Shown: positions 8,701 through 42,086 of the stretch, piece after piece
Layout of the letters: every line of letters begins with the position of its first letter
How positions within the stretch are numbered: the first letter of the stretch is position 1
Source of the DNA: Sandaracinus amylolyticus
GTDB taxonomy: Bacteria; Myxococcota_A; Polyangia; Polyangiales; Sandaracinaceae
Direction: 5' to 3'
Assembly (NCBI RefSeq): GCF_000737325.1
Contig: NZ_CP011125.1
Span: forward strand, 9,424,001 to 9,488,000
DNA: 64,000 nucleotides
Translations under genes and position numbers: made by a program
The notes under the pieces: model-generated
Told to the model about the DNA's origin: nothing
Database searches by the model: none
The model's input: the letters and a program-made list of their open reading frames with translations, nothing else

Positions 8701-8921
8701 CGACGCCGGTCGACGTGATCAGCGCGCCGGCGGACGCACCGCGCGGTCACCTGCGCAGCGACGAGGTCGCGCAGATGACGACGGGTCGCTCGTTCGTGTG
8801 CGCGCTGCTGACGAACGGCGCGGTGACGTGCTGGGGCCAGCCCGCGATGATCTACGGAGACGGGACCACGAGCGCGCGGCGGGTGGCCATCCCGACGTCG
8901 GTGGTCGCGAACGTGCCCTGA
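5796..8921 (+). CDS. Lipoprotein with MopE-like repeats and RCC1 propeller
   Basis: A 1041-aa exported lipoprotein (lipobox LAGC at about residue 17). Residues about 95-570 carry six or seven copies of the MopE-type metal-binding motif, in which a CDGxDNDCDxxxDE core alternates with DADGDGxG and DCDDxxPxxxP segments. In this family Asp/Cys-rich motifs bind metal or calcium and have been found on myxobacterial surfaces. A Cys-rich linker (about 570-640) is followed by seven RCC1-like blades, each with a CAxxxxGxVxCWGxN core, to the end. Seven blades would close one propeller. The gene stands alone and its 3' end lies 7 bases from the convergent amidase gene. Ligand unknown. Confidence 0.92.
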   Translation: MRSLRPIFVLLVLWLAGCGDDPDDPAVDGGGTDAAVVCTQDEDCDDDRFCNGAEDCAPASPSADARGCAPATVAPCVTGQVCDESARSCTTECSVTEDADGDGARATECGGDDCDDADATRFPEATEVCDLLGHDEDCDPTTYGERDVDGDGETDAICCNGETCGRDCDDLRRGTSPDASEVCDGLDNDCDDLVDERVTVAVWPDLDFDLHGDSGATAEMRCAGAFGYATVGDDCDDDDPAVHPAQVEICDGKDNDCDALQDEAPAAVTWYADADGDGFGSSDPTLARISCTPLPGYSLRATDCDDARAGMSPATPERCDGLDNDCNGRPDFILGARDTEDDDGDGHADLACPGGDDCDDRDPTSAPESAEICDGRDNDCNGAIDDGAAMGSWWIDRDGDTYGDDDTAPVMSCAFVRGRIPRGGDCDDSSADRRPGAREVCDGSDDDCDELVDEGSERGAYYVDADGDGLGAGTALLACVAPSDRVDDASDCDDTNRSIGAARVFFVDADGDTWGDPLRSELSCATLSNRVTRGGDCADGDAAIYPMATERCGGGDEDCDGATDEDPAASASCTIMGASAVCSAGACTIGMCAPGLGDCNTSSADGCETSLRTDATSCGACGVACDPGERCREGECARVTSITAGDSHVCALLDTGRVACWGSNLYAQLGRGTTGSSGAPPTDASQLVQLYTGAVLGDVVDIDSHPDANFTCAVRATGQVVCWGQNHELQIGDDAPASYASRAVPIPNVGGATHVTVGSRHACAIVGSGEVRCWGSNSGGQLVSGSTTPVRSGAGVVAVENEGGMQRPIPDAIAIAAANELTCVLHAGGQRVSCAGRNGSGGGAAGQLGRGTLAAGIYPIADDAIIPTGTVLNGIEAGAGSYDGFMCATRAVGAPLCWGLNTYEALGPGGAINAPRPFQPLLFAQTQGVSIGQDFLCVRYTNESFGPRVACSGLNGSGQLGNDSMANTATPVDVISAPADAPRGHLRSDEVAQMTTGRSFVCALLTNGAVTCWGQPAMIYGDGTTSARRVAIPTSVVANVP

Positions 8922-8928
8922 CGACGAA

Positions 8929-10476
8929 TCAGGTCGTGCGACGACGGAGCAGCAGCGCGAGCGCGAGGAGGAGCGCGAGCGCTGCCGCGGGCGAGCGACG
9001 CGCGTGGTCGATCGTGCAGCCGCCTTCGATCGAGCCCGACGTGCCGGCATCGATGCCCGCATCGACCTCGCTCGGCGCGATCGAGGTCACGCGCACATGC
9101 ACCACGTCGTCCGCGGGCCCGCCCATGCCGGGATCCGAGAACCACGCGACGTCTTCCTGCACGAGCGTGAAGAACTGCGCGTGCTCGCCGAGCGAAACGG
9201 GCGCGCGCACCGAGAACACGAAGCGTCCGACCTCGCCCGGCGCGACCTCGCGATCGACCGTCGCCGGACGGTTCGGCGCGATCCACGTGGGCGTCGCGAG
9301 CGCGCTCTCGACGTCGCGCGGCTGCGTCGTGCCGAGGAACGTCGCGCCCGGCGTCCACGTCTCGGTGCCGACGTTCCGCATCTCGATCACGCCGTCGGCG
9401 ATCGCGCCTCGCGTGACCTCGGCCGGGAAGGTCTGCGAGACCCACTCCGCGCCGAAGCGCGGCGTCGTCACCGCGCCCGCGAGCGCGCGGATCTCGTCGA
9501 GCCGCGCGTGCAGGTGATCGCCGGGGCACGCGGTGCTCTGATCCGGATGGTCGCGATGGCCCTTCAGCGTGTCGGTCGTGATCGTGATCTCGTGGATGCG
9601 CGCGACCTCGCGCGCGACGCGCCCCGCGCTCTGGATCATCACGTCGGGCGGCATGAACGGCGTCCAGTCGTTGCAGCTGCTCGAGTGGAAGCACCCGATG
9701 AAGCAGATGCCGACGTTGCCCGTGTTGTTCGCCGCGGTGTGGGTGCCGAGCAGATCGTGATCGCGCCCTTCCCACACCGTGCCGTCGAGCGACACGAGGA
9801 AGTGGTACCCGATGTCGCACCAGCCGTTGGTGTCCATGTGGTACGCCTGGATCCCGCGCAGGCGCGCGCCGATGTCGCCGCCCGACGGCGTCGCGGTGTG
9901 GTGGATCGCGATGCGCGTCTTGTCGGGATCGGCGTCGGTGCAGCGCGTCGCGCGCGCGCCCCAGCTCGCGCGATCGCGCACCCCGAGCGCCGCGAATTCG
10001 CTGCGCAGCGGCGCGCTCACCACGCCGACGTCGCGCGCTTCGTCGGCGACCGGCACCGGCACCACCGCGGACCACGTGATCATCGCGATCCGATCGACGT
10101 CGGACGCTGCGATGCGCAGCTCCGCACGGTGCGCGACGAACGTCAGATCGACGCGCGCGACGCGCTGATCGGGCTCCTCGAACGTCGTCTCGAGCGGCGC
10201 CCACGCGCCGCCGGCGCCGCGCGCCTCGATGCGCGGCGCTGCTCCGGGCCCGTCGAGCACCACGAGGGCGCCGACGCGCGTCGCACCGGTCGGCGCGTCG
10301 AGCGCGTCGACGTGGAAGCCGTCTTCGACACGCCAGTCGCGCGCGATCTCGAGCCCGGTCGCGCGCGCCTCGGGGATCGCGTCGACGTCGGTCGGTGGCA
10401 GCGTCGCGCGTGGCGTCTCGCACGCGACGAGCAGCGCGAGCACGACCACGACCCTCGAGCACGGCAGGCGAGTCAC
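8929..10476 (-). CDS. PGRP-type N-acetylmuramoyl-L-alanine amidase, surface anchored
   Basis: A 515-aa exported amidase that would cleave the bond between muramic acid and L-alanine in peptidoglycan. The catalytic domain (about residues 175-350) has the zinc ligands: His in IAIHHTATP near 191, His in KGHRDHP, and Cys in ACPGD; the family Tyr is in DIGYHFLV. A beta-sandwich near 365-470 resembles the NBR1-type Ig domain. The N-terminus has a lipobox (LLVAC) and the C-terminus has a Cys, a hydrophobic helix and an Arg-rich end, like a MYXO-CTERM sorting signal. GTG at 10476 was chosen because it puts the signal peptide at the N-terminus; GTG codons at 10503 and 10512 are alternatives. Confidence 0.9.
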   Translation of the reverse strand: MTRLPCSRVVVVLALLVACETPRATLPPTDVDAIPEARATGLEIARDWRVEDGFHVDALDAPTGATRVGALVVLDGPGAAPRIEARGAGGAWAPLETTFEEPDQRVARVDLTFVAHRAELRIAASDVDRIAMITWSAVVPVPVADEARDVGVVSAPLRSEFAALGVRDRASWGARATRCTDADPDKTRIAIHHTATPSGGDIGARLRGIQAYHMDTNGWCDIGYHFLVSLDGTVWEGRDHDLLGTHTAANNTGNVGICFIGCFHSSSCNDWTPFMPPDVMIQSAGRVAREVARIHEITITTDTLKGHRDHPDQSTACPGDHLHARLDEIRALAGAVTTPRFGAEWVSQTFPAEVTRGAIADGVIEMRNVGTETWTPGATFLGTTQPRDVESALATPTWIAPNRPATVDREVAPGEVGRFVFSVRAPVSLGEHAQFFTLVQEDVAWFSDPGMGGPADDVVHVRVTSIAPSEVDAGIDAGTSGSIEGGCTIDHARRSPAAALALLLALALLLRRRTT

Positions 10477-30803: not shown

Positions 30804-31187
30804 ATGCCGAAGCGCGTGAGCCCGCAGGAAGCCAAGGGCCTGATCGATCAGGGCTGGGTCTACGTCGACGTCCGCACGCCCGAGGAGTACGCCGCGGGCC
30901 ATCCCGAGGGCGCGTACAACGTGCCGATCGGGCCCGAGCTGGTCGGCGCGATCGAGTCGCTCTTCCCGGCGCGCGACGCGAAGATCGTCGTCGGGTGCCA
31001 GGCCGGTGGGCGCTCGCTCCGCGCGCTCGGTCTGCTCGAGGCCGCCGGCTACACCAACGTCGTCGATCAGCGCGCGGGCTGGGGCGGCAACGGGAGCGAG
31101 GCGGGCTGGGGCGCGTCGGGCCTCCCGAGCGAGACCACCGCGCAGCCCGGCCGCAGCTGGCGCGAGATCGCGGCGAAGCGCGGATGA
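30804..31187 (+). CDS. Rhodanese-like sulfurtransferase
   Basis: A 127-aa single-domain rhodanese. The active-site loop VVGCQAGGRS has the catalytic Cys65, and the family signatures DVRTPEEYAAGHPEGAYNVP and YTNVVDQRAGWGGN are present. It would carry sulfur as a persulfide. The active-site loop begins CQAGGRS, as in the GlpE/PspE-like single-domain type. The next gene starts inside its stop (ATGA), encoding a degenerate metallo-beta-lactamase fold protein; rhodanese is often linked to persulfide dioxygenase of that fold, so the pairing is suggestive. Confidence 0.92.
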   Translation: MPKRVSPQEAKGLIDQGWVYVDVRTPEEYAAGHPEGAYNVPIGPELVGAIESLFPARDAKIVVGCQAGGRSLRALGLLEAAGYTNVVDQRAGWGGNGSEAGWGASGLPSETTAQPGRSWREIAAKRG

Positions 31188-32194
31188 TCGAGGCGCTCTC
31201 CGAGCTCGACGCGGCGCGCGCGAGCACGCCCGCGGGCACACGCCTGCGCGCGCTGCGCCTCGCGGGAGAAGCGCTCGCCGAGCGGCTGCGCGACGCCGCG
31301 CCGGTGCGCCGCGTCGAGGTGCTCGCGCTCGATCGTGTGCCGGTGCGCGCCGAGCTCGCGCTCGACGGTGCGCTGCGCGCGCCGGTGCGGTGGATGGAGC
31401 TCGAGCGCCGCATGCTCTTCCTCGAGCTCGAGAGCGGCGCGCGCGTGGTCGTCGATCCCGTCGAGCCCGGCTCGTGGTCGCGCACCCCGTGGGGCACCTG
31501 GCTCGCCGAGGCGCACCCGCGCCGCGCCCGTCGCGCGCTCCAGCAGGGCCGCAGCGCCGGCGCCGCGCTCGCGTCGATCGGGGTCGAGGCCGACACCATC
31601 GACGTCGCGATCCTCACCCACCTGCGCGGCCAGGATCTGCGCGCGCTGATCGGCACCGCGCACGGCGACGGCGTCGAGGGACCGCGCGAGAGCATGCTGC
31701 CGCGCGCCCGCTGGATCGTGAGCGCGACCGAGCTCGCGAGCGCCGCGGTGCCCGACGACCTCGAGCGCGCGCACCTCGTCCGCGACGTGCGCGCGCGGGT
31801 CGCCGAGGATCGCATCGAGGCGATCACCCGCGACGTGTCGCTCCGCGGCAGCGTCGCGGTGATGCACGCGCCGGGGCTCACCGAGGGCCAGCTCGGCGTC
31901 GCGGTGCACGACGCGCGCGGCGTCTTCGTGTGGAGCGCGCAGGGCGTCGCGGTCGACTGCTGGTCGCCGTACCACGCGCGGCTGCCCGGGCTGCGGGAGC
32001 GGGTGCGCGAGCTCGACGTCGAGGCGATCCCGCGCGGCGACGCCTGGTCGCGCGGCGAGGCGCTGATCTCGATGGCGCTCGAGCGCGCGGTCGCCGATCG
32101 CCGGCAGGACGCGCCCGCGATGCACCGGGTGGTGCCGTCGGCGGCGCTCTGCGGGCACCCGCTGGCGCGTCCGTGGGGCGACGAGCGCGGGTGA
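31184..32194 (+). CDS. Degenerate metallo-beta-lactamase-fold protein
   Basis: A 336-aa cytoplasmic protein. The core (about 65-260) follows the metallo-beta-lactamase fold: AILTH at 141-145 is where HxHxDH should be, and VMHAPGLTEGQLGVAVH matches the later TPGHTPGH block. The metal ligands are mostly lost: His145 remains, but the second His is Arg147, the Asp is Gln149, and the next His is Asp150. The TPGH histidines are also missing. It is coupled to the rhodanese by an ATGA overlap. A non-catalytic or altered-metal role is inferred, possibly binding persulfide or acyl-thiol compounds. Confidence 0.7.
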   Translation: MIEALSELDAARASTPAGTRLRALRLAGEALAERLRDAAPVRRVEVLALDRVPVRAELALDGALRAPVRWMELERRMLFLELESGARVVVDPVEPGSWSRTPWGTWLAEAHPRRARRALQQGRSAGAALASIGVEADTIDVAILTHLRGQDLRALIGTAHGDGVEGPRESMLPRARWIVSATELASAAVPDDLERAHLVRDVRARVAEDRIEAITRDVSLRGSVAVMHAPGLTEGQLGVAVHDARGVFVWSAQGVAVDCWSPYHARLPGLRERVRELDVEAIPRGDAWSRGEALISMALERAVADRRQDAPAMHRVVPSAALCGHPLARPWGDERG

Positions 32195-32257
32195 GGGCGG
32201 CCGGCGAGCTCGTCCGAGAGCCGGTCACGACCGCTGGGTGACCCACGATCGATACGC

Positions 32258-32558
32258 CGGGAGCCGGAATCTTCCCCCAGAGCGTCCTGGCGCGCGATTC
32301 CGGAGCACGTCCGTGACCCTCCGAGCGCTCGGGGAGGTCTGTCCGGAGGCCGGAATCTTCCCCCAGAGCGCTCCGGCGGACGTGTCCGGGATCCCGACAC
32401 GTCCCCCAGAGCGCTCGGGGACACGTGTCCGGCACCACGAACGCTCCCCGAGAACGCTCGGGGTGCCGTGTCCGAGACCACGAATGCTCCCTCGGAGCGC
32501 TCGAGGGGCCTCGACCGAGATCCGGACTGCCCCCGGTGGGCGTTCGAGGGAGCGTGTC
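32258..32558. repeat. Seven tandem 43-bp units with internal palindromes
   Basis: Seven head-to-tail units of exactly 43 bp: 32258-32300, 32301-32343, 32344-32386, 32387-32429, 32430-32472, 32473-32515 and 32516-32558. They share a start of CGGGA or CGAGA, a central CCCCCAGAGCGCTCGGGG-like dyad and an ending ACGTGTC. Weak further units may exist on each side. The period is not a multiple of three, so it is not coding. The array fills the gap between two convergent genes (32195-32743). It has no spacers, so it is not CRISPR. Confidence 0.85.
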
Positions 32559-32743
32559 AGGGTCCCGGAACGCCCCGCGGGTCGCTCACCGGCGACGACG
32601 ACACCTCCCGCACCGGGTCGCCCGAGCGCCATCCCGGACCGCTCGCGAATCCGGGCGAATGCGACAGCAGAGCCCGACCGCGAGCGCCCGAGCCGCGCGC
32701 GTTCCGCCCGTCGGACCCACCCGCTCGCGCCTCTCGGCGGGAC

Positions 32744-34099
32744 CTACTCGGCGCATCGCGCGAACTGCACCATCACCGCGCCGCCGCCGCGGTACGCGAC
32801 CGCGATCAGGCCGTCTTGGCCGCGCGCCAGCGCGGGGTCGGTCGCGGGGCCCGGGATCACCATCGGGTCCCCGGCGCCGCGATCGTCGACGACCCGCATC
32901 CGGATCTCGTGGGGCGCCTCGCGCGCCGCCGCGGTCGGGGCCTCGGCCGCGAACACCACCGTGCGTCCGCTCGAGGTCGCGGCGATCGTCAGCGGGTCGC
33001 CGTATCCGACCCCCGGCACCAGCGGCGACGGCATCTCGGTCCCCGCGGCGTCGACCAGGCCCACCGCGCGCGTCGCGAGGTTGCCCACCGCGGCGTACGC
33101 GAGCCACGTGCGCCCCGTGACGTTCGAGCGCGCCGCGGCGATCGCGGGCGGCTCGGCCGCGAGGTTGAGCGGGCGCGCGACCTCGGTCGGGCTCGGCGCG
33201 CCGTCGGGCCCCAGCACCACGCGGTGGGCGACCGAGATCCCCACCCGCGGATCGAGGAAGAGCAACATCACGTCGCCCACTCCGTCGACGAACGCCGGCG
33301 CCGCGCCGCCGCCCGCCACCGGCGTGACGTCGTGGGTCGCGACCACCCGTCCCGCCTCGAGCAGCGCGAGCTTGAGGTGCATCGGCGTGCTCGATCCGTC
33401 GGTCCACGCGACCGCGCGGCGCGTGCCCACCGCGCGCACCGCGGGCGGGAAGCGGGGGTCGGCGCCGGCGTCGGCGAGCGCGTTCGCGCGCGGCGCGCTC
33501 GCGGGCAGCGTCGGGTCGAGCGTCGCGCTGAGCACGCGCCCGTGCCCGTCGACGAACGCGAGCGTGATCTCCTGGGGCGCGGTGCGCGCCATGCCGGGCG
33601 CGGCCTCGCGCGGAGGCGCGCCGTCGATCGGGATCGACGCGATCGGCTCGGGCAGCGCGCCCGGGCGCGCGCGCACCACCACGAGGGCGCTCTGATCGTA
33701 CGCCGCGACGAGGAACGCTCCGTCGTCGAGCGCGACGATCGCGGGCGGCCCGCCGGCCGTGAGCAGGCGCATCGGCGCCGGCGACTGCAGCGCGCACCCG
33801 CGTGCCGGCGCGGCGCGCGGCGCGAGCGGTCCCGGCATCGCCTCGGCGGCCGCTTCCTCCTCGGGCGTCGGCGCCTCGCCGAGCTCGTCGAGCAGCGGCT
33901 CGGAGGCCTCGGGATCGACCCGGCCGACGTCGGGATCACGCCGCTCGGGCGGAGTCGACGCGGTGGGCGGGCGATCGGCGGTGGGCAGCGCCGCGGCCTC
34001 TTCGTCGCGCCCGCCGCACCCGAGAGCGAGCGCGATCACGAGCACGGCGGCAGTGCGCAGAGAGGCGGTGCGGGGAGAGCGGTGACGAGAGAAGGACAC
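32744..34099 (-). CDS. Lipoprotein, beta-propeller-like, unknown function
   Basis: A 451-aa lipoprotein. The signal ends at Cys28 (ALGC) and an acidic Pro-rich linker (about 35-95) follows. The rest is a series of beta strands with periodic Val/Ala-rich repeats such as PPAIVALDDGAFLVAAYD and GGRTVVFAAEA, suggesting a propeller or similar all-beta fold, without Cys apart from a few. The GTG start at 34099 is 5 bases from a -10-like TAGGGA. It is divergent from the quinone oxidoreductase. Function unknown. Confidence 0.8.
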   Translation of the reverse strand: MSFSRHRSPRTASLRTAAVLVIALALGCGGRDEEAAALPTADRPPTASTPPERRDPDVGRVDPEASEPLLDELGEAPTPEEEAAAEAMPGPLAPRAAPARGCALQSPAPMRLLTAGGPPAIVALDDGAFLVAAYDQSALVVVRARPGALPEPIASIPIDGAPPREAAPGMARTAPQEITLAFVDGHGRVLSATLDPTLPASAPRANALADAGADPRFPPAVRAVGTRRAVAWTDGSSTPMHLKLALLEAGRVVATHDVTPVAGGGAAPAFVDGVGDVMLLFLDPRVGISVAHRVVLGPDGAPSPTEVARPLNLAAEPPAIAAARSNVTGRTWLAYAAVGNLATRAVGLVDAAGTEMPSPLVPGVGYGDPLTIAATSSGRTVVFAAEAPTAAAREAPHEIRMRVVDDRGAGDPMVIPGPATDPALARGQDGLIAVAYRGGGAVMVQFARCAE

Positions 34100-41657: not shown

Positions 41658-42086
41658 TCAGAATCCGCTCGAGAACATCAGCAGCACCGCCGCCACACGC
41701 TGGTACGCGCTCGCGCTGATGCAGCAGCTCTGCGCCTGTCCCCACCGCGATCCGTTGCGGTAGATGTCGCCGTCGTTCTCGATCTGCCCGACGCGCGAGC
41801 CGTTCACGTAGAGATCGCCGTCGCTCTCGATCTGCCCGATGCGCGAGCCGTCGCGGTAGATGTCGCCGTCGGGCTCCACCTGGCCGGCGCGCGAGCCGTT
41901 CACGTACACGTCGCCGTCGTCCTCGATCTGCCCGGCGCGCGAGCCGTTCACGTACACGTCGCCGTCGTCCTCGATCACCGCCCAGCGCGAGCCGTCGCGG
42001 TAGATCGTGATGTCGGCGCGCGCGACGCCCGTGAACGCCGAGAGCGAGACGACGAGCGCGAGCGCGGAGAGCAGGTGGCGAGTCAT
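41658..42086 (-). CDS. Secreted 16-residue repeat protein
   Basis: A 142-aa protein with a signal peptide (about 1-24, ending ARA) followed by five full copies of a 16-residue unit (residues 38-117), consensus IExDGDxYVNGSRxGQ, plus a partial one before. Each unit suits a beta-hairpin, so a stacked beta-solenoid or beta-flower shape is likely. The last 25 residues contain a CC pair and a hydrophobic end. The ATG at 42086 follows TATGCG by 7 bases. Function unknown; it may be a surface repeat protein. Confidence 0.8.
   Translation of the reverse strand: MTRHLLSALALVVSLSAFTGVARADITIYRDGSRWAVIEDDGDVYVNGSRAGQIEDDGDVYVNGSRAGQVEPDGDIYRDGSRIGQIESDGDLYVNGSRVGQIENDGDIYRNGSRWGQAQSCCISASAYQRVAAVLLMFSSGF
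41736..42014 (-). repeat. 48-bp coding repeats for the 16-aa unit
   Basis: Five 48-bp in-frame units plus a partial first unit encode the DGD-YVNGSR repeat. Two neighbouring units are identical in protein sequence, suggesting recent duplication or strong selection. Confidence 0.85.

Follow-up and report, generated by a model that had tools for sequence, protein, structure and literature searches.

Intergenic tandem arrays with a 41-43 bp step form an apparently undescribed set in Sandaracinus

Bacterial minisatellites, or VNTRs (mycobacterial MIRU, for example), are intergenic tandem repeats whose units are gained or lost whole; the units within one array are usually near-identical. Iterons and other phased protein-binding arrays are made up of sites repeated in tandem at a helical spacing, in which the core is conserved and the linker varies. 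REPs are palindromic units of 20-40 bp that lie between genes, mostly in convergent or tandem gaps (PMC3733652), and DNA gyrase, Pol I and IHF are known to bind REP/BIME elements (PMC1525189; PMC3733652). Our literature searches for the array pattern described below found nothing, and no such repeats are described for Myxococcota in the papers searched. The main text of a 2025 REP survey does not mention the phylum (PMC12306157). In the available portion of the S. amylolyticus genome paper, CRISPR and insertion elements are the only repeats searched for (PMC5010890).

The array analysed here lies in a 64,000-nucleotide stretch of Sandaracinus amylolyticus DNA (the window; positions 9,424,001-9,488,000 of a single-contig genome of 10,327,335 bp, chromosome GC 72%). 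A preliminary description made from the sequence alone reported seven palindromic units of exactly 43 bp, argued that a constant length in diverged units means that the spacing is selected, and offered a binding array for a nucleoid or partition protein, a structured RNA or a recombination-prone site as possible roles. That interpretation is partly supported: the spacing argument holds, and function is a proposal. The array appears to belong to a genus-wide set of intergenic arrays, apparently undescribed, whose sequences differ and whose unit is almost always 41-43 bases long.

The window array and its F1 relatives

Seven tandem units of 43 bp lie at 32262-32562 (Table 1), where a position-specific scan with a 57-column profile finds all six spacings to be 43 bp. 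Self-similarity of the surrounding intergenic gap peaks at 43, 86 and 129 only, and TRF also returns a period of 43; the array first reported is thus confirmed. Degenerate half-units extend the array to about 32577. It is continuous, the whole 43-bp unit repeating without spacers. As had been stated, the array is flanked by convergent genes and its period is not a multiple of three; the latter fact, together with its position in a gap of the codon-usage gene call, led us to reject a coding origin.

Table 1. Units of the window array and the features around it (window coordinates)
Feature	Position	Strand	Remarks
Upstream convergent gene	31184..32194	+	Codon-usage gene call; weak metallo-beta-lactamase-fold lactonase match, below curated cut-offs
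Intergenic region, 549 bp, between convergent genes	32195..32743	.	Gene calls
Unit 1	32262..32304	+	Central AGCGTC; 91% identity with the orthologous unit in G002
Unit 2	32305..32347	+	Central AGCGCT; degenerate left half-site GCACGTCC
Unit 3	32348..32390	+	Central AGCGCT
Unit 4	32391..32433	+	GTCCCCCAGAGCGCTCGGGGAC; long GACGTGTCCGGGATCCCGACACGTC palindrome at left junction
Unit 5	32434..32476	+	CTCCCCGAGAACGCTCGGGG; G002 lacks one whole 43-bp unit here
Unit 6	32477..32519	+	CCCTCGGAGCGCTCGAGGG
Unit 7	32520..32562	+	Central GGCGTT; 86% identity with the orthologous unit in G002
Degenerate right edge of array	32563..32577	+	
Downstream convergent gene, 433 aa	32744..34045	-	Codon-usage gene call; no family match

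The central AGCGCT dyad is perfect in four of the seven units, the other three carrying AGCGTC, AACGCT and GGCGTT. A junction palindrome had been reported at several junctions; a good copy, GACGTGTCCGGGATCCCGACACGTC, is present at one only (about 32379-32403), with TCCGG...CCGGA-like remnants at the rest. The consensus of 22 units of the family to which the array belongs, F1, is ACCCGGAATCGTCCCCCCGAGCGCTCGGGGGGGCGTGTCCGGG. Of its two dyads, one falls in GAGCGCTC and the other lies around the junction TCCGGG/ACCCGGA. Because tandem repetition of a dyad-symmetric unit automatically creates a second dyad half a period away, the latter is not independent evidence.

Near the array, the product of the upstream gene shows a weak, sub-cut-off match to metallo-beta-lactamase-type N-acyl homoserine lactonases, and a rhodanese-domain gene (30804-31187) adjoins that gene. 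Elsewhere in the window, at 41746-41995, five copies of a 48-bp unit form a tandem repeat of the in-frame type that is probably coding.

Similar units do occur elsewhere. The same genome contains two further F1 arrays, A (9,659,045-9,659,358) and B (3,912,398-3,912,703), both of which also lie between convergent genes. Among 56 relatives, clear matches were found only in the congener G002, with a single marginal match in G030 (E 0.0098); a profile HMM search of a draw of 282 Myxococcota genomes gave no match at 1e-5 beyond the genome itself. The two F1 arrays of G002 are orthologues of the window array and of B, with flanking DNA ~89% and ~91% identical, and the difference in length between the window array and its orthologue is precisely one 43-bp unit. 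G002 has no array A; a predicted small gene occupies that junction instead. In the distant congener G001 the orthologues of the window's flanking genes (L268, 399-1475 and 1492-2487; proteins 55% and 48% identical) stand 16 bp apart without an array. The arrays thus come and go as wholes. Next to array B, the adjoining gene of S. amylolyticus is missing in G002 (L009:6621-7301 compared with L056); convergent junctions that carry arrays resemble insertion points. Among the paralogues, the opening three units of the window array have their best matches, in unchanged order, in the opening three of B; a permutation test of shared unit order on the whole arrays (window, A and B) was not significant.

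The step is conserved more strictly than the sequence. Every F1 spacing is 43 bp (28 of 28, in five arrays), and when all arrays described below are pooled, 146 of 156 spacings equal the modal value, the remainder differing by a single base. Orthologous units of the window array are 65-91% identical, against within-array means of 54-63%. Orthologous units are therefore more alike than neighbours, which means that the units were already different when the species separated and have stayed so without homogenisation. The step has nonetheless remained the same, and recent homogenisation is not what keeps it. Array A departs from this in part, having two adjacent units that are identical. Relative to substitutions, indels other than whole units are fewer in arrays than in adjoining intergenic DNA (3 per 139 against 18 per 143, p=0.002). 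Between species, core columns mismatch at 18.6% and variable columns at 34.2% (p=0.001), the core having been chosen on array A, an independent array with no orthologue in the comparison. Conservation is thus not random-like, core positions changing about half as often as variable ones. Substitutions overall are not clearly less frequent in arrays than in neighbouring intergenic DNA in the two cases compared (identity of 80% against 74% for the window array, 74% against 79% for B). Taken together, constant unit length, patterned conservation and similar units elsewhere support the argument that spacing is selected, and the pattern suggests that the spacing as such is of use to the cell.

Arrays of 41-43 bp in the genus

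The argument turns out to be broader than was claimed, as families between which no similarity could be detected share a period of 41-43 bp. We sampled 80 evenly spread 20-kb pieces of the genome plus the window, 1.66 Mb in all, from which genome-wide counts are extrapolated. This sample contains 25 tandem arrays with a non-triplet period, of which 17 have a period of 41 (five), 43 (ten) or 86 (two; binomial p~1e-15). A scan restricted to gaps finds 42 arrays in the 1.66 Mb and 0-1 in shuffled intergenic DNA, which excludes chance as their source. In 400 kb of G002, period 43 occurs twice beside scattered other periods. Diverse bacteria (80 loci, 1.47 Mb) yielded four arrays, with periods of 29, 32, 49 and 86; this control set came from a search of GTDB contigs for the orthologous locus, made with the SNF2 helicase encoded nearby, in which all matches were to distant relatives. 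Two other genera, in samples of ~190 kb each that are too small to exclude such arrays, gave none of 41-43 bp and one of 40 bp. True non-coding arrays of 42 bp exist too (L084, for example); period-42 arrays of 21-mers (L098, the second array of L107, L139) looked coding and were left out.

Members of the class mostly consist of 3-9 tandem units of 41-43 bp, or four turns of B-DNA. They are scattered around the whole chromosome, and some 24 non-coding arrays in 1.66 Mb would correspond to the order of 150 per genome. By consensus they fall into families of about three or four arrays each: F1, L109/L114 (F2), L081/L086, L107/L126 and L131/L138/L149/L150. The best identity between families (at most 0.56) does not exceed the maximum for shuffled sequences (0.58); L057 and L150, at 0.67, are an orthologous pair. 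The period is kept in this pair (43) and in L084/L151 (42), and the orthologue of L126 is a short 43-bp array. Family F2 is nearly absent from G002.

Some arrays differ in kind. Three 41-bp arrays (L124:8072-8308, L132:11371-11624 and L112:975-1257) have very homogeneous units and no purine/pyrimidine rhythm, and the L124 array folds with a z of about -16; they may be a type separate from the 43-bp arrays. At L057:5190-5680 (genome positions ~3,430,190-3,430,680) a more homogeneous tandem array, with a unit of roughly 100 bp judged from its repeating translations, adjoins the 43-bp array. Tandem arrays of 88-91 bp lie in convergent or tandem gaps at L120:12481-12792, L141:2219-2475 and L077 (around 8918-9443); two are nearly perfect, and all are unlike the 41-43 bp class in character.

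Do families without detectable similarity share anything besides their step? The unit consensus is more self-reverse-complementary than its shuffles (p<=0.05) in 18 of 33 arrays, leaving about half without significant symmetry. Purine/pyrimidine (R/Y) power at four cycles per unit, or ~10.7 bp, is 0.124 against 0.048 (z=8.8), and autocorrelation of array DNA peaks near 10-13, 21, 30-34 and 42, with troughs between. No such peaks were found in other gaps, array flanks or coding DNA; coding tandem arrays show triplet periodicity only, and arrays have no helical rhythm in A/T. The earlier remark that 43 bp is about four helical turns is borne out by the R/Y rhythm in about 8 of 19 families (~40%) and finds no echo in the other 11 or so.

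The arrays also prefer certain gaps. They avoid divergent ones (3 of 23 arrays, against 97 of 206 gaps; p=0.002) and occur in convergent ones more often than expected (7 of 23; p=0.01, rising to 0.06 when the comparison is with gaps of 300 bp or more). In tandem gaps they sit at a median of 162 bp from the upstream stop codon and 191 bp from the next start, so the stop codon is not favoured.

Readings of the fixed step

We tentatively favour, at a little short of an even call, the reading that these are helically phased arrays of DNA dyads at gene 3' ends with a BIME-like function. On this view the window array would work at the DNA level, offering a series of dyad-symmetric sites in helical phase at the 3' ends of genes and where genes converge. 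The dyads, in F1 GAGCGCTC and TCCGG.CCGGA, would be recognised by DNA gyrase or a nucleoid-associated protein, which would meet them on the same side of the helix at intervals of two or four turns and would bend or wrap the ~300 bp. By analogy with BIMEs, the array might handle the positive supercoiling that piles up at the ends of transcription units. As arrays arise and vanish as wholes, an array would be of benefit to its locus without being indispensable to it. Among the functions proposed earlier, a binding array of the nucleoid type is the likeliest. Partition (parS-like) sites are few and lie near the origin, with parAB close by, so that the scatter of the arrays over the whole chromosome makes this role look unlikely. 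A bolder version strikes us as rather unlikely: that geometry and not sequence defines the class, four-turn units (41-43 bp) of many families unrelated in sequence being selected for phase and read by a dedicated DNA-wrapping factor through their periodic shape (purine/pyrimidine blocks plus dyads).

The main rival to a phased DNA array is a neutral or selfish minisatellite, and it is a serious possibility. A few ancestral palindromic repeats of ~43 bp would have been spread by recombination or an unknown mobile process, would tolerate only whole-unit slippage, and would drift in sequence at 3' intergenic sites where they do little harm. Such elements account well for dispersal and for the presence or absence of whole arrays at orthologous gene pairs. 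The exact whole-unit deletion between species, the three or four arrays per family and the turnover of families such as F2 also fit, as does the matching order of the three leading units in the window array and B, a pattern not significant over whole arrays. Moreover, because transitions preserve R/Y, the rhythm and the period could both come from one ancient repeat. Drift would not, however, be expected to give dissimilar families a common step of 41-43 bp that survives decay of the units to ~60% identity. This cross-family period and the low indel count relative to neighbouring, neutral-like DNA are poorly explained by minisatellites; the R/Y rhythm and a core more conserved than its linker also speak against them. 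The related suggestion of a recombination-prone site is matched by the exact gain or loss of whole units, but by nothing beyond whole units.

The arrays might instead work as RNA, as chains of hairpins, transcribed at the 3' ends of mRNAs, that end transcription or block exonucleases, a reading we consider improbable. When both strands are folded, as had been suggested, the window array exceeds dinucleotide shuffles (z -5.7 and -6.4), and arrays in general have a median folding z of -2.6 where other gaps have -0.85; their location at 3' ends also agrees with this reading. Yet several arrays have no folding excess, those in tandem gaps are not close to the upstream stop codon, and a hairpin chain needs neither a fixed DNA step nor an R/Y rhythm. 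No Rho-independent terminator (stem-loop plus T run) was found in 32000-33000, and no Rfam family scored above gathering, the only hits being sub-threshold eukaryotic or viral miRNA families. The stems covary little or no more than shuffled ones: across 31 distinct aligned units, 63.4% of positions are paired against 61.6% (reached by 49 of 500 shuffles; 28 of 500 for the covariation score). Covariation therefore lends a structured RNA no support, and the symmetry comes from two half-sites that are each conserved alone, as expected of a DNA reader that is dimeric or symmetric. Very improbable is descent from the REP/BIME family proper, spread by a RAYT transposase. The arrays resemble REPs in being intergenic, palindromic, clustered and placed between convergent or same-direction genes (PMC3733652). 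A search of the genome for Y1_Tnp (PF01797) proteins, however, gave 0 matches while the positive controls, E. coli included, matched, which refutes the RAYT-spread form for this genome. Nor does the 22-unit consensus carry a conserved GTAG or CGTC tag by the palindrome, and gap-free units at a constant step are unlike BIMEs. As far as tested, the arrays do not seem to be REP/BIME elements by descent.

If spacing is the selected trait, the arrays would be a natural catalogue of sequences that share only helical geometry, and the requirements of shape-reading chromosome proteins would become testable. In addition, the phylum, for which the searched literature describes no such repeats, would have its own GC-rich equivalent of BIMEs.

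Comparison with known systems

CRISPR arrays likewise consist of regular repeats with dyads, but the Sandaracinus array lacks unique spacers and does not alternate constant with variable blocks; what repeats is the 43-bp unit in full, and this identity was rejected. The likeness to iterons is closer, with tandem units at helical spacing, a conserved core and a variable linker, although the Sandaracinus arrays occur at gene 3' ends in many parts of the chromosome and are not gathered at one origin. As in minisatellites and VNTRs, copies come and go as complete units (one exact 43-bp gap separates the two species); the Sandaracinus units differ in being old and only ~55-65% alike, not homogenised, with the step unchanged. 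The REP/BIME elements of E. coli, Pseudomonas and others are alike in their short clustered palindromes, found in convergent or unidirectional gaps and at 3' ends. Unlike them, the Sandaracinus units come without a RAYT in the genome and without a GTAG/CGTC tag, and they run contiguously, head to tail, at a constant 41-43 bp step common to several dissimilar families.
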